DNA of 64,000 nt. It comes from Dyadobacter fermentans (GTDB lineage Bacteria; Bacteroidota; Bacteroidia; Cytophagales; Spirosomataceae). The notes under the pieces were generated by a model, which saw only the letters and a program-made list of their open reading frames with translations, was not told the origin of the DNA and searched no databases. Location of the stretch: contig NZ_JAHXBN010000018.1 in the NCBI RefSeq assembly GCF_019924045.1, positions 486,506 through 550,505 of the forward strand, written 5' to 3'. Positions 32,163 through 38,311 of this stretch are shown here, piece by piece. How positions within the stretch are numbered: the stretch's first letter is position 1; every line of letters begins with the position of its first letter. The position numbers were made by a program, and so were the translations under genes.

Positions 32163-32198
32163 GTTTTGGATGGGAGACGGAGTTTGTTTACAGTGAAA

Positions 32199-32303
32199 AT
32201 GAAGGAGTGAAAAGCCAGGCGTGCGCTTTGGGGACTCGAACCCCGGCTGCCGTCGTGAGCAGCATCACCATACGAAGTATCACGCATGTACGACATCCTT
32301 CAA
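32199..32303 (-). ncRNA. Y-RNA-like non-coding RNA 3 (T-arm module only)
   Basis: Minus-strand RNA, third of three in tandem after the Ro60 gene. Ends pair as TGAAGGA with TCCTTCA. Inside is an internal loop with TGTCGTA on the 5' side and GGCTTTT on the 3' side, then GCGTG/CACGC, the shared motif GTGATACTTCG (the GATACTTCG part at 32281-32273), a hairpin GCTGC-N8-GCAGC, and a tRNA-type T-arm GGGG-TTCGAGT-CCCC (32244-32230). No D-arm is present. ATCCTT-TTG-AAGGAT can form a competing local hairpin. Boundaries are estimated from the pairing. No protein frame is supported. Confidence 0.6.
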
Positions 32304-32304
32304 A

Positions 32305-32460
32305 AGGATTGGAAAAGGCAAAAAGCAATACGTGAATGCACCTTACGGTGCTCCTGCTCTACCAACTGAGCTACTGCTGCAAGCAACAGGCCGGGCTCGA
32401 ACCAGCGACACGGCGATCCTAAATCGAAGTATCACGTATTTACGGCACTTTTCCAATGTC
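32305..32460 (-). ncRNA. Y-RNA-like non-coding RNA 2 with circularly permuted tRNA mimic
   Basis: The best supported of the three. ATTGGAAAAG (32457-32448) pairs perfectly with CTTTTCCAAT (32317-32308); after an internal loop (TGCCGTA opposite GCTTTTTGC) AATACGTGA (32440-32432) pairs with TCACGTATT (32335-32327). The enclosed loop holds in order a 5-bp T-arm with loop TTCGAGC (32406-32390), a 7-bp acceptor-like stem CTGTTGC/GCAGCAG closed by TT (32389-32374), the spacer TA, a D-arm GCTC-AGTTGGTA-GAGC (32371-32356) and a GTAA-capped hairpin GCACC/GGTGC (32351-32338). That is a tRNA core opened at the anticodon side. The RNA would bind Ro60 by its stem, as Y RNAs do. Confidence 0.8.
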
Positions 32461-32463
32461 TTG

Positions 32464-32590
32464 AAATCAAGGAGCAACAATCGATCCGGGTCGGGGGCTC
32501 GCTGTGAGGACTCGAACCTCCATCATGATTTGCATCACAATGCCCTCCCCCTAAATGTAGCGAAGTATCCCATTTCTACGGCATCCTTGT
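32464..32590 (-). ncRNA. Y-RNA-like non-coding RNA 1 (T-arm module only)
   Basis: First of the tandem RNAs, starting 35 bases after the Ro60 stop codon. CAAGGA (32589-32584) can pair with TCCTTG (32473-32468). It shares TGCCGTA and GATACTTCG (32569-32561) with the other two. A 9-bp hairpin CATTGTGAT-GCAA-ATCATGATG (32542-32521) with a GNRA-type loop precedes a T-arm GAGG-TTCGAGT-CCTC (32520-32506). I see no D-arm and only a short closing stem, so this copy is the least certain and may be decaying. Confidence 0.5.
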
Positions 32591-32595
32591 TTTTT

Positions 32596-32628
32596 ACGGC
32601 GGCGCCATTACAGGCACCGCCGTTTTAT
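32596..32628 (+). terminator. GC-rich hairpin between Ro60 and the Y RNAs; terminator-like on the + strand
   Basis: ACGGCGG (32596-32602) pairs with CCGCCGT (32617-32623), extended by GCC/GGC (604-606 with 613-615) and a six-base loop. On the + strand it is followed by TTTTATATT and would stop read-through from the regulator gene. On the minus strand it is followed by an A run, so it does not look like an intrinsic terminator for Ro60; Ro60 and Y RNA transcription may therefore be continuous, with the hairpin as a processing or stability element. Confidence 0.5.
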
Positions 32629-34196
32629 ATTGATATATGATTGATGGAATCCAAACCAGCGGCCCCGTTTTCCAAAGCATCGAGTACACCAAAGATTTTG
32701 TCGCTCCAACCTGCGATCAGATAGACGTCATTCATCATTATTTGCAGCGGTGCTTGTTTGTAACCCTGTAAATCGAATAGGTAAAGTCGCGCGTTGGGAG
32801 CAAGCTCGCGTTTATAGCGTACCCACAATGTCCGGATATTTTCGGTTCCGGCATTATTCCAAAGCTGGCCATCGGTAAAAAGCATTACTTTATCCATCAC
32901 CACTTTGCGTTGCAGCAAGTCTTTGATCACCAGATATCCATTGGTAGCATATCCCACCTCTCCCTGCCGATTATAGAACGCCTGTACATTGGCCAGGATA
33001 TTATTCCGGCTCACACGAATTCGCTTCCAGGTATCCCCAAACATCCCAACCTCGACATGGGCACAACGATTTTGCAAGAGCATAGCCAATACAAGACCTA
33101 CATCGTACAGCATTATACTCGACTTCGCCGAAACGGGCATCTGCATGGATCCCGAAACATCGCAGGCGAGCAACACGCTCGTATCCTTCCCAAAGCCGCT
33201 AATCGCCTCAGCACTTTGGAGAATGGCCATTTCCAAGGCATGGACAAGCCGTCCGCGATTATCAGGTTCGCTTCCGAAGAGCTGCATGAGTTTATTTGAA
33301 ACCTTCCTTTCCGGCATTTTCATTTTCAAAAGCTCGCGGTACGCCGACAGGTACCGAAACGGGAACTGTTTCGCTTTGGCCACTTCCTTTTGCGATGACA
33401 ATATTTCGCAAACTTTTCCAATATGCACCGGGGAGATATTCACCTCCAGCAAGTTGCGGAGATTTCGCAACAGCGCCATGTAACCCAGCCTTCCGCTATC
33501 GATCAGTTCTTCCCATTTCGCCCGGAAGGCAGCGGTACGCTCTGTTTCGTTTGCAAAAATCACCTGGCCCAATGCCGACAACTCCGTTTCCCAGGTGTAT
33601 GGCGTATCTAACTGATTGGTTGCAATCTTGTTGAAAACCACTTGCTGTTCGGCATTCTTCGCTTTCGGGTGAACCAGAAACAATGCATCGCGCAATTTCA
33701 CGTCACTATTGTCACTGTTATATTTACCAAACTGGTACGCGTCAAAATTGTTGAAGGCCGATGCAAGTCCTTTTTGGAGTTGTTTTGACAGTCCATTCAG
33801 CTTCTTCGCACCTTTTCGCTCATTCAGCAGCTGGTAACACGCCAATAGCTCCGTAATTTCATCGGCACGGGCTATCACCTTTGCAGTCGTTTTTGCCACC
33901 AGATCGTCGCCCCTGTGTATGCGCGCGAGTTCCGTAAGCAATACGAGCGGCACTGAGCGCATATACATGAAATGCCGGGCGTAAACTGCCAGTTTTGCTA
34001 CAAACATTGGCTCCGCCTGCTCGACCAGCGACCGGATCCGGGCAAGCCGTTGATCATTCTTTTCATAGAATGAGTCGTTCAGTGACCAGGTTACGACAGC
34101 GGTATATAGTTCCGTTGCAGGGTCCAGCTTGTAAGCCCGCGCTCCTTCGTAGTTTCTGATCTCGTTGTTTTTTGCAACGGATGTATTGAATTTCAT
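32625..34196 (-). CDS. rsr: Ro60 orthologue (TROVE domain plus von Willebrand A domain)
   Basis: 523 residues, close to the usual length of Ro60 proteins. The TROVE HEAT-like ring spans about 10-340 (ELYTAVVTWSLNDSFYEK, MYMRSVPLVLLTELARIH, SAYRELLKMKMPERK), and a vWA domain with the MIDAS D346-V-S348-G-S350 follows, with the FTDGQLWNN segment later. Ro60 binds misfolded or damaged RNA through its ring and Y RNA on its outer face, and in bacteria tethers to exonuclease PNPase or works in RNA repair operons. The start ATG at 34196 has a strong Shine-Dalgarno. Three Y-RNA-like genes lie directly downstream. Confidence 0.95.
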   Translation of the reverse strand: MKFNTSVAKNNEIRNYEGARAYKLDPATELYTAVVTWSLNDSFYEKNDQRLARIRSLVEQAEPMFVAKLAVYARHFMYMRSVPLVLLTELARIHRGDDLVAKTTAKVIARADEITELLACYQLLNERKGAKKLNGLSKQLQKGLASAFNNFDAYQFGKYNSDNSDVKLRDALFLVHPKAKNAEQQVVFNKIATNQLDTPYTWETELSALGQVIFANETERTAAFRAKWEELIDSGRLGYMALLRNLRNLLEVNISPVHIGKVCEILSSQKEVAKAKQFPFRYLSAYRELLKMKMPERKVSNKLMQLFGSEPDNRGRLVHALEMAILQSAEAISGFGKDTSVLLACDVSGSMQMPVSAKSSIMLYDVGLVLAMLLQNRCAHVEVGMFGDTWKRIRVSRNNILANVQAFYNRQGEVGYATNGYLVIKDLLQRKVVMDKVMLFTDGQLWNNAGTENIRTLWVRYKRELAPNARLYLFDLQGYKQAPLQIMMNDVYLIAGWSDKIFGVLDALENGAAGLDSINHISI

Positions 34197-34220: not shown

Positions 34221-34935
34221 CTAATCTTCGGCTTTTTCCTTTGGATCTGCCATGCGGACAATTCTTGGCTGGAATTGCGCCAGCACGTCCACCAGCGCAG
34301 TTTGCGCGGCCATAACCGTATGAATGTCTTTGTAAACCATAGGCGCCTCATCCAATCCCGAACCAATTACCGTAACGCGATTGGCCTCCAGATTCCGGGC
34401 AACGCAAGGTGTTTCGCCTCGTTCGGCAGCCTTGTCTTTTCCATCGCAATTTTGGAATAGATATCTGCGATATTTCCTCCAAATCCCCTCGACCCCGAGT
34501 GCGACAACAAGGCCAGATAGGCATTCCATTCTTCCCGATCAAACAAGCTCGTATCGAGATGCCTCTCGGAAGTGGAACCCATGCCGAAATGCGTATGTTC
34601 GCCCAGCAACTTTTCGAGCTTGCCCTTCTCCGAATCAATCACCGTCGCAGGTATATCGAAAATACTCAGGCACATTCGGCAAGCGATGTCGACGCCAACT
34701 GCATATGGTATAATGGTGTTGGCAGTGGTTGCCAGCACCCCGCCAATAGGCAGGCCGTATCCCTGGTGGGCGTCGGATCGGCGATCAGGGCTTCGAGGTT
34801 GGTCAAGATGCTTGCCTTGTCCATCACTTGATGTTTCAAAAGGCCGTTGGCTACGCGGCTGAATGCCACCAGCAGATCCAGGTCGTCGATTCCGAGTGCC
34901 CCTATTTCGCCATTGCTGATCTTTTCTTTTTCCAT
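34221..34935 (-). pseudogene. rtcB: RNA ligase RtcB, broken by frameshift and internal deletion
   Basis: Three pieces in different frames align in order with RtcB: an N-terminal part from ATG 34935 (about 55 residues, up to LEALIADPT), a middle part (HQGYGLPIGGVLATTANTI ... PYAVGVDIACRM ... LLSHSGSRGFGGNIAD, about 34765-34410) and a C-terminal part (ARNLEANRVTVIGSGLDEA ... to KEKAED, 34415-34221). A frameshift lies near 34765. At about 34405 the sequence jumps from NEAKHLA to ARNLEAN, losing roughly half the protein, including the region with the guanylated His. It cannot ligate RNA. Intact RtcB joins 2',3'-cyclic phosphate and 5'-OH RNA ends and often shares an operon with Ro60. It ends 24 bases before the Ro60 start. 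Confidence 0.88.
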
Positions 34936-35034
34936 GACTGTGTTTCTGTTTGACAGTTACAAAGCAACAGGCCTACTACGCAGTCTTTTTGCGCAGTCAA
35001 TTTTATTTTGATATTTTTTCAGAAAAATTTCAAT

Positions 35035-36066
35035 ATGCCTGTTAACCGCAATGCGCTGATCCGCTACCGGACCATTGACCAATGCTTACAGAACCGGCTC
35101 CGCAGATGGACACTGGATGATCTGATCGAAGCTTGTTCGGAAGCCCTGTATGAATATGAAGGAATTGGAAAAGGCGTCAGCAGGCGGTCGGTGCAAGCCG
35201 ACATTGAAATGATGCGAAGCGATAAGTTGGGCTACGAGGCGCCCATTGTCGTGATCGACAGGAAGTATTATACCTACGAAGACAAGAATTACAGCATTAC
35301 CAACATCCCGCTCACCCGGCAGGACATGAAGGTGCTGAGCGAGGTGTCGGGACTATTGCAGCAATTCAAAGGGTTCAGTCATTTTGCCGACCTGAACGAA
35401 ATGGTCAGTCGCCTGGAAGATAAGATTCACGCGCGCCGCACGCATAGTATGCCCGTGGTCGATTTTGAAAAGAACGACCACCTGAAAGGATTGGAACATA
35501 TTGAGGTGATCAGGCGCGCAATCATTTCCCAAACGACATTATGTATCACCTATCAATCCTTCAAGGCGAGGCAGGCGAACACATTTTGTTTCAGCCCCTA
35601 CTTATTGAAAGAATACCGGAACCGATGGTTTGTGTTAGGCCAATCTCACCAGCGCCATTCCCCCCTGCTCACGCTGGCGCTCGACCGCATTCAATTGCTA
35701 TGTGAAGAGCCGTCGGAATCCTATCAGGAGAATAACCGTTTGGACCTCAGTACTTATTATGATGATGTGATCGGGGTTACCAAAACAGCCGGGCAGCGAA
35801 ACACCGAAGTTATCTTTCGCATTGAACACGCCCACGCTCCCTATGTGATCACCAAGCCGATCCACTCCTCGCAGAAGTTGCTCGGCAGTGATGCGGAGGG
35901 CAAAATTTTCAGCATCCGCGTAGTCCTCAACTTCGAACTCGAACGCGAACTGCTGGGCTTTGGAGCAAAAATCACCGTATTTGGGCCCCGAATTCTTAAG
36001 AAGCAGATTCTCGAACAACTCACCAGAGCGGCCGGGCAATATAATTCACCAGAAAAGCCGCTTTGA
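35035..36066 (+). CDS. WYL-domain transcriptional regulator
   Basis: 343 residues from ATG 35035 (MPVNRNALIRYRTID); the TTG at 35008 adds nine residues not typical of the family. A winged helix-turn-helix (about 10-70, with SRRSVQADIEMMR) precedes a WYL domain (about 150-240, NRWFVLGQSHQRHSPLLTL) and a C-terminal WCX-like extension. WYL proteins bind nucleic acid or nucleotide ligands. It is divergent from rtcB/ro60, with 99 bases between the starts, the position held by RtcR in the enterobacterial rtc operon, so it probably regulates the RNA locus. Confidence 0.85.
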   Translation: MPVNRNALIRYRTIDQCLQNRLRRWTLDDLIEACSEALYEYEGIGKGVSRRSVQADIEMMRSDKLGYEAPIVVIDRKYYTYEDKNYSITNIPLTRQDMKVLSEVSGLLQQFKGFSHFADLNEMVSRLEDKIHARRTHSMPVVDFEKNDHLKGLEHIEVIRRAIISQTTLCITYQSFKARQANTFCFSPYLLKEYRNRWFVLGQSHQRHSPLLTLALDRIQLLCEEPSESYQENNRLDLSTYYDDVIGVTKTAGQRNTEVIFRIEHAHAPYVITKPIHSSQKLLGSDAEGKIFSIRVVLNFELERELLGFGAKITVFGPRILKKQILEQLTRAAGQYNSPEKPL

Positions 36067-36070
36067 TACC

Positions 36071-38311
36071 TCAGAAAATATTCCTGATCTCGTCAATAAG
36101 CCCGACGTATTGTTTCTTGATGTTCCGTTGCCGGTAAGCGTCCGCGCCGCTCCAACTCTTGTCCCAGTTGGCGCTACTGAACGACCATGCATTGAGCCGG
36201 CTGAGCTGGTCGCTAAGTGACTTCAGGCTTTCGTTCAAGCTGTTGATGGCCCCGACGTTAGTGCTGAATGACATGCCTTTCCAGGCCACATTTTCGGCAG
36301 CAGAGAATGGAATCGGGTATAGTTTGATGCCATGGGCATTACTACTCAATAGCTTGTTTTCCTTGTCATATTCAAATTCCAGGTACCTCGCCCGTCCGGG
36401 TTTCGAGAAGACAACCTCTTTGTCATAAATGGAGCTCAACCCGCCTTGCTGGGGACCAAAGGCCCAGATATCGCCGTCGGGAGTGAGTAATGGCAGTACT
36501 TTATAGAAAGGACTAAATGCGGTGTAGTTTCGCCCCTCAAAACTGCATGTGCTGAGGGTATAAGCCTGCCGGGAGTCAGCATCAGAGCCGGCTATGGGCG
36601 GGCCAATGCTCTTGCCGTCTTTGATCAACCCCAGGCCCAACTCGCAGTTCCTGAGGAAAGACACTTTATTCCACAGGGCATAAATAGCACGGTCGGCTTC
36701 TCCCAGGCTGTGATAAATCTCTTGTGCCTTGGCGAAGTTCACCCCGTCGGCTTGCATTTTTCCTGCGGCATTGGCAAATGCACCTGCAATACTCAGCGTA
36801 GTGACGCCGGGTTTTGATGGGTCCTTTCTCTTGATTTCGGTGATGCCCGACGAATTGGCAATGTAATAGAGCCTGCTGAGGGCTTGGTAGTCCTGCAACA
36901 TCACCCGCAACTGCACTGCCTCCTCCCCTTCGATATCGTCGATGCTATTATAGTAGCCCTGTGCCATCCACGGAAAAAGGTCGGGCCAGTTACTGATCCA
37001 AACGCCCAGCGGGACGTATCCCTTCGTGCTCACCTCTTTTCCGGCTTTGGCATTTTCGTTCAAGGCGAATGCTTCGTTCGTCAAGAAACCGGTGTCGGAG
37101 TTTGTCGCCAGGCTCCCGAACTCTTCATCAGGTTGTTGCTCTTTAGGCTTTTTCTTCCTGGGTGGAATGAGGGTATCGATGTCACTTTCTTCCACTTTTT
37201 CCGCAAATTCGTCAAGCTTTTTCTTGTCTGCCGGCTGGTCGGCTTGCCGCAGGAACTCGTCCAGGGTAAGGTTCGGGTTCTCTTTTCTGGCTTTATCATA
37301 AGCCGAAGCTTTTGCCAAGGCATTCAACCCGTCCAGGTCTTTGATTTCACCTACTTTGCTGGCGATGTCATTTCCGGGTTTGGGTTTTACAAACTCAGGA
37401 ATGGAAGGTGCGCCCTGGGTAATTTTCATGTCCGGTGCTTTGTCCATCACCTTCACGTCGGCCAGTTCACCGAATGATTTGTTCGCTACCTGATCGAACC
37501 ACTTGTCGATCTGCGGACCAATAACCGAACCACTGCTATCGTGTGTACAATGCACGGAAATCTTCGCGTCACCGCTCGACTGCCCCCCATCATAAGTCGC
37601 CTTCACCGCCACAGAGGCGAAGGTATTGGCATACGAGAAATCAGCCTGGCCGCCATATTTCCATGATTTCGATTCGCTTTCGGCGGTCATGACCATCTTC
37701 ACCCACCCGAATGCCCCCCAGGTAACACCGACAACCAGACCATCGCCGAATTCGCGTGTAAACTTCTCCGATTTGGCGATCCAGTCCGTGACGAGTTTTT
37801 TCAAGGCCTCATTTTGGGGATCATCGCTCCGGAAGACGCTCAACGGGTCCCGACCCGATTTGGAAGCCGCTTTCATTACTTCGTTGTAGGCATCCAACAC
37901 TGCAATTATACTTTGCCGGCATGCCAGGTTCAGCCCTGCAATGAAACTACTCGCGGTAAGCTCTTCGAAATTGATATATTCCACTCCTCCCACCGCCATG
38001 GCGTTGTAGTTGACCGTCACCGATTTACTGCTCACAGCCGAAGATGCCCCTACATAAGCCGACAATGAGGATTTGAGCAAGCTTACCCCCGAAACACCAT
38101 AGGCGCCAGACATGCCAAACGAGCCCTGGTTCATCTGGTCGGAATAGACATAGCTGCTTTCTCCGGACATGGATTTTTGAGTTTCCTCCTGGGAAATCAT
38201 CAGACTGATAGGGGCCGCCACTACGCTGGTGTTGAATTTTCCGGTAGCGGCATAGATCGTCGCCCCGATACTTACCCCGTACAGGGGATTAAGTCTTTCG
38301 GAATTACTCAT
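36071..38311 (-). CDS. Large MACPF-like protein, putative pore-forming partner of the aegerolysin
   Basis: 746 residues, no signal peptide. The N-terminal 280 residues have the outline of a MACPF/CDC domain: a glycine-rich start (LYGVSIGATIYAATGKF), small-residue strands (GMSGAYGVSGVSLLKSSLSAY), a helix LKKLVTDWIAKSEKFTREFGDG and, at 188-200, FGDGLVVGVTWGAFG, which occupies the place of the family's Y/F-G-T-H signature but lacks its His. Residues about 290-430 are charged and low in complexity (PPRKKKPKEQQPDEE), and 430-746 form an unrecognised domain. The call rests mostly on the operon, since aegerolysins work with MACPF proteins. Third gene of the operon, 23 bases after the phospholipase. 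Confidence 0.5.
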   Translation of the reverse strand: MSNSERLNPLYGVSIGATIYAATGKFNTSVVAAPISLMISQEETQKSMSGESSYVYSDQMNQGSFGMSGAYGVSGVSLLKSSLSAYVGASSAVSSKSVTVNYNAMAVGGVEYINFEELTASSFIAGLNLACRQSIIAVLDAYNEVMKAASKSGRDPLSVFRSDDPQNEALKKLVTDWIAKSEKFTREFGDGLVVGVTWGAFGWVKMVMTAESESKSWKYGGQADFSYANTFASVAVKATYDGGQSSGDAKISVHCTHDSSGSVIGPQIDKWFDQVANKSFGELADVKVMDKAPDMKITQGAPSIPEFVKPKPGNDIASKVGEIKDLDGLNALAKASAYDKARKENPNLTLDEFLRQADQPADKKKLDEFAEKVEESDIDTLIPPRKKKPKEQQPDEEFGSLATNSDTGFLTNEAFALNENAKAGKEVSTKGYVPLGVWISNWPDLFPWMAQGYYNSIDDIEGEEAVQLRVMLQDYQALSRLYYIANSSGITEIKRKDPSKPGVTTLSIAGAFANAAGKMQADGVNFAKAQEIYHSLGEADRAIYALWNKVSFLRNCELGLGLIKDGKSIGPPIAGSDADSRQAYTLSTCSFEGRNYTAFSPFYKVLPLLTPDGDIWAFGPQQGGLSSIYDKEVVFSKPGRARYLEFEYDKENKLLSSNAHGIKLYPIPFSAAENVAWKGMSFSTNVGAINSLNESLKSLSDQLSRLNAWSFSSANWDKSWSGADAYRQRNIKKQYVGLIDEIRNIF

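Follow-up and report, generated by a model that had tools for sequence, protein, structure and literature searches.

Arrays of Y RNA units beside Ro60 in Dyadobacter fermentans and related Bacteroidota, with permuted tRNA mimics and putative anticodon arms

Permuted tRNA genes of archaea and algae carry the 3' half of the tRNA before the 5' half, and mature into working tRNAs. Bacterial Y RNAs were reportedly surveyed by Chen in 2014, and are said to lie beside Ro60 in diverse bacteria and phages. Such an occurrence of Y RNAs beside Ro60 is also on record in three further sources (PMC8394870, PMC12282133, PMC7765460). The domain of YrlA (Rfam RF02553; Salmonella, Rhizobium, and Mycobacterium) has been described as similar to the D-, T- and acceptor arms of tRNA (PMC8394870). 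In Salmonella, the rsr-yrlBA-rtcBA operon responds to tRNAs cut in the anticodon loop; in the same source, fragments of YrlA were not seen with an SOS-activated anticodon nuclease at work, and a decoy role for YrlA, by competitive inhibition of such a nuclease, is voiced as a possibility (PMC7790460). A survey of jumbo phages groups TROVE proteins with RNA repair (PMC7824862), and Ro60 orthologues and bacterial Ro60 RNPs of commensals have been reported, with Bacteroides thetaiotaomicron among the Ro60 carriers (PMC6801612). Our search of the literature on YrlA, Y RNA, anticodon and TROVE returned no title on anticodon arms or on Bacteroidota arrays; subscription papers lay outside that search, and a prior description is possible.

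The window, a stretch of 64,000 nucleotides of Dyadobacter fermentans DNA, holds three Y RNA-like units on the minus strand, with starts at 32584, 32448, and 32296. The pattern RTGYCGT-N10-TACTTCG has three matches in the window, all at 32273-32584 (-), with a shuffle expectation of 0.00, and one further, isolated match in the whole 8.0 Mb genome. The initial annotation had called a Y-RNA-like gene adjoining Ro60, which agrees with the TROVE and vWA_Ro60 domains of the neighboring gene, and had overlooked the two sister units that flank this middle one (unit 2). The features of the locus are:

35008..36066, plus strand: WYL-domain regulator, divergent (Pfam; 91.7% identical in the relative L005)
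34224..34935, minus strand: remains of rtcB in three fragments, broken, with stretches missing
32625..34196, minus strand: Ro60 (Rsr), 523 aa, upstream of the array on the same strand (Pfam TROVE and vWA_Ro60; PDB relatives 9l5y, 9kop)
32465..32592, minus strand: unit 1, 128 nt, with a T-arm sequence and a long GCAA-capped hairpin, no D-arm (clamp pattern)
32309..32456, minus strand: unit 2, 148 nt, very probable Y RNA with a permuted tRNA mimic (MFE fold, covariation, YrlA match)
32448..32456, minus strand: unit 2, outer stem, 5' strand TTGGAAAAG, partner 32317-32309 (16-unit alignment and covariation)
32441..32447, minus strand: unit 2, presumed Ro60-contact zone, conserved 5' strand TGCCGTA
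32432..32440, minus strand: unit 2, inner stem, 5' strand AATACGTGA, partner 32335-32327 (alignment and covariation)
32414..32431, minus strand: unit 2, TACTTCG and anticodon-arm-like hairpin CGA-TTTAGGA-TCG, with triplet TAG, U33, G37 and only 3 bp (family-level tests)
32390..32406, minus strand: unit 2, T-arm GCTGG-TTCGAGC-CCGGC (Rfam YrlA alignment, 16-unit alignment)
32374..32389, minus strand: unit 2, acceptor-like hairpin, closed (YrlA match, MFE, alignment)
32356..32371, minus strand: unit 2, D-arm GCTC-AGTTGGTA-GAGC (YrlA match, alignment)
32338..32351, minus strand: unit 2, extra hairpin GCACC-GTAA-GGTGC with a GNRA loop, after the D-arm (MFE; in only some aligned units)
32327..32335, minus strand: unit 2, inner stem, 3' strand TCACGTATT (alignment and covariation)
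32318..32326, minus strand: unit 2, presumed Ro60-contact zone, conserved 3' strand GCTTTTTGC (unit comparison, alignment)
32309..32317, minus strand: unit 2, outer stem, 3' strand CTTTTCCAA (16-unit alignment and covariation)
32198..32304, minus strand: unit 3, 107 nt, with a T-arm and a hairpin, no D-arm (clamp pattern)

The minimum free energy (MFE) fold of 32460-32305 (-) has an energy of -56.5 kcal/mol (shuffled sequences -43.8 ± 4.2, with 2 of 200 at least as low; single-sequence z-score -3.0) and includes all the parts that had been drawn by eye: two long-range helices enclosing a 5-bp T-arm, an acceptor-like hairpin, and a D-arm. Some details of that drawing changed. For the acceptor-like hairpin, the MFE version of 6 bp and a CUUG loop is preferable to 7 bp closed by TT, and the hairpin GCACC-GUAA-GGUGC after the D-arm is an addition. 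Likewise, the internal loop of TGCCGTA and GCTTTTTGC is present at a smaller size than stated, with a G11-C and a Y12-R pair inside it (G32446 and C32445 pair with C32318 and G32319 in unit 2). The permuted tRNA mimic itself stands, whereas the view that the tRNA was opened within its anticodon arm, and that the Y-RNA stem replaces this arm, is not supported: because part of the relatives retain an anticodon arm directly after the Ro60 stem, the cut lies between the D-arm and the anticodon arm. ARAGORN found no tRNA in the window, and neither ARAGORN nor the Rfam tRNA model places unit 2 among the tRNAs; its acceptor is closed by a loop and therefore has no CCA end. Permuted tRNA genes of archaea and algae likewise present the 3' half first, and differ in that here the acceptor is loop-closed and a Ro60 clamp sits at the join.

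Similar to YrlA, the unit lies beside Ro60, has an end-to-end long stem with an internal loop, and arranges its arms as T-arm, closed acceptor hairpin, and D-arm. The Rfam YrlA model, a check proposed at the outset, matches unit 2 with 35.3 bits (E 7.7e-5) over 61 bases (32413-32353; model positions 24-84 of 114) and with the arms in that order, at a score below the gathering cut-off of 69 bits. None of the 12 Bacteroidota loci searched (of 80) gave a YrlA match at the gathering score; the same model gives 92.4 and 63.5 bits beside Ro60 in Rhizobium phaseoli. Unlike YrlA, the units described here have a clamp of different sequence (RTGYCGTA...TACTTCG / GNYNNTTRC) and stand in arrays of up to 8, and they include anticodon arms, mini units, and T-only units, which are absent from the Rfam YrlA consensus. 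The Y RNA of Deinococcus gobiensis (plasmid P2, L097; YrlA 49.6 bits, below the cut-off) shares by eye the layout, with the clamp GGTGGTGAAG...TTCCTTC and the 3' loop GCCTGTTCCC; it differs in that one unit was found in the fetched 7 kb, upstream of Ro60, and in that the hairpin at the place of the anticodon arm is not tRNA-like by eye. The phages CcrColossus, Brevundimonas phage Kikimora, and Xanthomonas phage Olaya have the same clamp, arrays, and anticodon arms, although their units lie upstream of Ro60 and their clamp reads GTGGCGTAG or GTGGTGTAG. The locus thus has what is expected of bacterial Y RNAs, namely an adjoining Ro60, an end-to-end stem with a conserved internal loop, and a tRNA-like domain in at least one unit. 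Unit 2 is almost certainly a bacterial Y RNA; judged from its sequence it is one of the YrlA type, and it is a new member of the bacterial Y RNAs.

The sister units are less completely resolved by folding. The MFE fold of unit 1 contains the outer stem and the GCAA hairpin and lacks the T-arm and the inner stem, and that of unit 3 contains the outer stem, the hairpin, and the T-arm and lacks the inner stem. By eye, such units with a T-arm only (T-only units) resemble normal-order tRNA bodies without a D-arm, with a short closing stem, a hairpin (often GNRA-capped) at the position of the anticodon arm, and a T-arm, a layout with which the MFE folds agree only partly. A CcrColossus unit of the T-only type (L100 2331) has the Cys-like loop CTGCAAA in its hairpin.

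Covariation of the long-range stems, also named in advance as a check, was found in related units and in wider unit sets. We aligned 16 related units that have both a T-arm and a D-arm (TD units), i.e., the window's and 15 of a list of 24; five of the nine left out are of types without an anticodon arm. RNAalifold predicts 34 pairs for this alignment, 20 of them with changes on both sides, and 96.1% of cells are paired, against 82.5% in shuffled alignments and 35-54% with partners slid, a comparison in which the structure has an advantage over the slid versions, being derived from the same alignment. Six of the seven pairs of the acceptor-like hairpin vary on both sides. The 16 units are identical in the D-arm stem and in much of the T-loop, and the four D-arm pairs therefore show no covariation. 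With 3' arms identified solely from their loop motif and complementarity ignored, the inner stem was 76.7% and the outer stem 83.0% paired in 128 units, against 53.0 and 55.6% with the 3' arms redealt among units; this test left out 203 of 331 units, with none or several 3' motifs or non-canonical spacing. Swapping 3' arms within a locus, which keeps relatedness, lowered pairing from 81.0 to 60.9% in the inner stem and from 83.2 to 60.5% in the outer stem (137 units, 48 loci). The Y12-R pair covaries as well, both in the 16 rows (UA 9, CG 5, UG 2) and in the 225 units with a well-scoring 9-base 3' loop (CG 139, TA 75, TG 7, others 4), and since it pairs, the presumed Ro60-contact loop would be CGUA opposite GNYNNUU with a bulged U, smaller than first drawn.

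A scan with the window's Ro60 provided the loci of 80 of 129 relatives, nearly all of them named as Bacteroidota, with other genera in the titles of two MAGs. Units occur on Ro60's strand in 77 of the 80 loci, with three or more in 66 and a maximum of 8, and a TD unit is present in 68; the regular expression for the clamp matches 328 times on Ro60's strand and never on the opposite one. With the window's three there are 331 units, of which 323 could be delimited and 8 were dropped for want of a good 3' arm. The 323 comprise 119 TD units, 102 T-only units, 4 with a T-arm and a stray D-like hairpin, 92 with no T-arm, and 6 with a D-like hairpin only. Among the units without a T-arm are 38 mini units, in which TACTTCG and the closing stem are 35 bases or fewer apart.

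Across 296 genomes of the phylum, TROVE was found in 24 and the strict clamp pattern in 47. The two lists, compared by eye, coincide in 14 of the 24 TROVE genomes, where the strict pattern lies within 3 kb downstream on the same strand; these 14 hold 34 of the 70 strict-pattern matches. The other 36, a few of which (such as one in G131) do look like units, are near chance level because a reversed control pattern matches 73 times (counted by eye). Inspection by eye of the ten TROVE genomes without a strict match nearby revealed units with a relaxed clamp in four (L178, L180, L181, L182), three of which hold five units each, and a tRNA mimic without a clear clamp in L183; in the remaining five nothing clear was seen by eye. 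The clamp variant in L178, L181, and L182, with five units per locus, is TGTTGTA/TGCTGTA. Clamp-like matches at G131:C37:12729 and G249:C1:5593841, where no TROVE was found, are possibly Y RNAs without Ro60 and possibly chance.

The genes near Ro60 touch on tRNA and its repair. Where the window has fragments of rtcB, the relative L005 carries an intact 484-aa gene, and another full-length RtcB is encoded elsewhere in the own genome (contig C50); rtcB in the window is a pseudogene while Ro60 and the Y RNAs look intact. Further on, 36074-38311 (-) encodes a 746-aa protein without a Pfam match at threshold. Within the fetched flanks, rtcB is present in 29 of the 80 relatives' loci, on Ro60's strand in all 29, and was not found in the other 51. 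Besides the Y units, ARAGORN detects 95 tRNAs in 21 of the 80 loci (890 kb in all), clustered in a few of them (17 in L027, 13 in L047, 11 in L068, 10 in L049) at a density far above that of the own genome overall (37 tRNA matches in 8.0 Mb). Seven loci (L027, L047, L049, L057, L059, L068, L046) have 5-17 ARAGORN tRNA genes within 5 kb of Ro60, and in some loci such clusters sit between Y units. This neighborhood of rtcB and tRNA clusters fits a setting of tRNA damage.

In part of the units, the near-invariant TACTTCG forms the 5' strand of an anticodon arm, with UUCG(N) followed by a loop of seven bases and by (N')CGA or CGG; a variable loop, the T-arm, the closed acceptor hairpin, and the D-arm come after it. 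Under a strict criterion applied to non-redundant units (at least four of five stem pairs, a 7-nt loop, U33, and R37), such an arm occurs in 24 of 104 TD units (shuffled 3.1 ± 1.8, maximum 10 in 500), 14 of 34 mini units (0.5 ± 0.7, maximum 3), and 5 of 54 other units without a T-arm (1.3 ± 1.1, maximum 5); the T-only units, with 2 of 95 against a null of 2.4, form an internal negative control. The remaining 80 TD units miss the criterion, and by eye L007 and the unit at 7335 in L014 have no arm at all. A first count of contiguous stems of at least 4 pairs in TD units showed no excess (14 against 11.9), and the bare stem with 4 of 5 pairs allowed gave 35 against 22.2 ± 4.2 (maximum 37); the stem by itself being a weak signal in TD units, it is the loop features that carry the signal.

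The tRNAs of the own genome have 33 different seven-base loops, and an exact copy of one of them occupies the loop position in 13 of 34 mini units (expected 0.29), 13 of 104 TD units (0.96), and 5 of 54 other units without a T-arm (0.43), and in 1 of 95 T-only units (0.94). TD and viral units picked by the stem alone have U33 in 69 of 80 and R37 in 66 of 80, with 33 different triplets. When units are picked by the loop alone, a 31-39 pair forms in 33 of 38 TD units (20.4 in permutations, at most 29 in 2000) and in 14 of 17 mini units (8.0 in permutations, at most 14). ARAGORN takes 10 of 395 units for tRNAs, with the anticodon some 4 bases after TACTTCG (printed as 3 to 5). Eight of the 38 mini units contain GTCACGC; seven of these eight, from Mucilaginibacter, Flavihumibacter, Pontibacter, and two unclassified MAGs, read CCTGTCACGC and have CCUGUCACGC, the core of the tRNA-Asp arm, on clamps whose stems are different and compensated. 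At the level of the family, these comparisons make it very likely that the anticodon arms are real.

Unit 2 itself is a weak case. It reads UUCGA-UUUAGGA-UCGCC, with three contiguous pairs, U33, G37, and the triplet UAG, and falls short of the strict criterion by its number of pairs, whereas relatives satisfy it; the loop of the own-genome tRNA-Leu(UAG) is CUUAGGA, and in two near relatives these stem bases enclose CUGUCAA (L006) and CUAUCCC (L005). In the predicted ensemble the three pairs have probabilities of 0.93-0.96, and the loop is closed further by U34-A40 (0.94) and U35-G39 (0.77); outside the loop, GAUAC pairs with GUGUC in the predicted fold. Leaving the 7-base loop open is predicted to cost 5.9 kcal/mol relative to the MFE. 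Because its own arm is weak and its loop is predicted to close further, the arm of unit 2 rests on family evidence, and the chances that it is a real one appear evenly balanced.

For viruses, the CcrColossus Ro60 led to 32 viral contigs, which with 11 further viral or phage loci make 43 loci; 27 of these hold 67 non-redundant clamp matches on Ro60's strand, with 3 on the opposite one. The strict criterion selects 22 of the 67 (shuffled 1.4 ± 1.2, maximum 6 in 500), a count that includes loci inspected earlier, namely the 11 loci and CcrColossus (L143 = L100). Repeated on the 31 uninspected loci, which include a close relative of CcrColossus (L144), it selects 15 of 47 (shuffled 1.0 ± 1.0, maximum 6 in 1000). 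The last base of TACTTCN varies in this set and its partner follows, as in UUCGA/UCGAG, UUCAA/UUGAA, UUCUA/UAGAA, and UUCCU/AGGGG. In units with a fitting loop, the 31-39 pair is present in 17 of 22, a count that none of 5000 permutations reached, and the 30-40 pair likewise in 17 of 22 (matched by 12 of 5000); the 29-41 pair is uninformative because its 5' base never varies, and with the loop at offset 0 pairing occurs in 6 of 8, not above chance. The CcrColossus and Kikimora records annotate Y units with anticodon arms as tRNA-Gln and tRNA-Ser (L100 2131-2198; L101 2802-2876). Kikimora also has a permuted tmRNA near Ro60 (L101 6377-6722; Rfam tmRNA_permuted, 57.7 bits). A Ro60 relative is encoded in 20 Bacteroides phage records, including crAss001, where it is followed downstream by a clamp-like unit whose 5-bp hairpin, TTCAA-AAGCATG-TTGAA, has no U33 (L103 4084).

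Among the three-base windows tested, the triplet changes fastest when units that otherwise agree are compared in pairs. Its mismatch in held-out data is 0.44-0.49, against 0.35-0.40 for positions 42-44 and 0 to 0.28 for other windows, and the values reached by positions 42-44 weaken the stronger claim that only the triplet varies. For example, CcrColossus has CUG where L144 has UAG, with the remaining compared bases identical, and the Hymenobacter loci L035, L036, and L076 have UCG, UUG, and CAG. The cognate own-genome tRNA ranks first for 5 of 41 unit bodies (median rank 10 of 36). Body and triplet are thus uncoupled, and on this count we reject the idea that the units arose simply by capture of entire tRNAs of the matching identity.

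The sequences establish the clamp and its covariation, the array, and the arms of the heads, as well as anticodon arms with changing triplets at the level of the family. We propose that the locus would be a small array of bacterial Y RNAs made together with Ro60, each combining a putative Ro60-binding clamp (outer stem, conserved asymmetric internal loop, inner stem, and TACTTCG) with a variable head, which in unit 2 would be a tRNA opened between the D-arm and the anticodon arm and presenting an anticodon-like hairpin, T-arm, closed acceptor hairpin, and D-arm. Judging from the class, Ro60 may bind and stabilize the RNAs through the clamp. The heads could then offer tRNA surfaces to anticodon nucleases, tRNA-modifying enzymes, and PNPase, on bodies that would be neither chargeable nor usable in translation, and different units would cover different tRNAs. 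As a whole, an array of Ro60-clamped Y RNAs with heads that would serve as tRNA decoys or adaptors is the best explanation, and one toward which we lean slightly. Decoys or adaptors are the simplest reading because anticodon arms of many identities sit on unchargeable bodies. That acting as decoy or adaptor against tRNA damage would be their main role we hold tentatively and with somewhat less than even confidence; the many units that lack an anticodon arm, and the lack of a known nuclease at this locus, speak against decoys. Also against the explanation as a whole count the weak arm of unit 2, the 80 of 104 TD units outside the strict criterion, the unit bodies that do not track their triplets, the YrlA fragments not seen in Salmonella (PMC7790460), and the broken rtcB next to a Ro60 and RNAs that look intact.

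It is also conceivable, if doubtful, that the Ro60 loci of Bacteroidota and phages encode arrays for anticodon display, each Ro60-bound RNA presenting a different tRNA anticodon arm, in forms that would range from the bare hairpin of the mini units to a whole permuted tRNA, with the triplet swapped in a constant scaffold. Decoys that compete with anticodon nucleases in an arms race would be expected to exchange triplets in this way.

The units may instead be ordinary Y RNAs of the YrlA type, serving as Ro60 gate and PNPase tether as in Deinococcus, with the hairpin a spacer or a leftover of tRNA ancestry, an alternative that we consider possible and rather unlikely. It builds on a clamp and a tRNA-like module that are known and on a published RYPER model (PMC8394870), and it accommodates the uncoupling of body and triplet, the many TD units that fail the strict arm criterion, and the weak arm of unit 2. 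However, mini units consist of nearly nothing other than this hairpin, 13 of 34 with an exact tRNA loop; seven of the eight with GTCACGC keep the same sequence despite different clamp stems; the stem changes in viruses are compensated; and the frequencies of U33 and R37 are not those expected of a hairpin that is only a spacer.

Another alternative, which we regard as improbable, is that the arm acts as a tripwire: an anticodon nuclease cutting it would detach the 5' clamp strand from the head, upon which the Ro60 ring would open or the damage be marked, and RtcB could reseal the break. The arm does sit directly on the clamp, rtcB is a neighbor in 29 of 80 loci, and the Salmonella operon responds to cut tRNAs. 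Against it stand the YrlA fragments not seen in Salmonella after damage (PMC7790460) and the description of the YrlA domain as like the D-, T- and acceptor arms (PMC8394870), together with the broken rtcB here and its not being found in the fetched flanks of 51 loci. A role as substrates or sponges for tRNA-modifying enzymes, or as translation regulators, acting through the T- and D-arms alone, is quite improbable: the invariant D-arm stem and T-loop bases of the 16 units and the reported modification of YrlA by TruB and DusA (PMC8394870) are in its favor, but mini units have neither arm and T-only units have no D-arm. Finally, a chance fold or decayed tRNA genes are hardly credible and are rejected, since the modest z-score of unit 2 and the incomplete design visible in the MFE folds of units 1 and 3 are outweighed by the covariation with its controls, by the strand asymmetry of 328 to 0, and, for tRNA pseudogenes, by the lack of any ARAGORN tRNA in the window.

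If the heads display anticodons, the question of what bacterial Y RNAs do beyond the Deinococcus PNPase complex would become a concrete one, namely which nuclease or other enzyme reads them, and the mini units, with 19-32 bases between the clamp strands, would be ideal reagents for it. At the level of annotation, this branch goes unrecognized by Rfam YrlA at the gathering score, both in the window and in those loci of relatives that were searched (12 of 80), and two or more phage genes recorded as tRNAs are in fact Y RNA units. Were the heads indeed anticodon displays, this would also hint at a reason for the presence of Ro60 and such arrays in phages.
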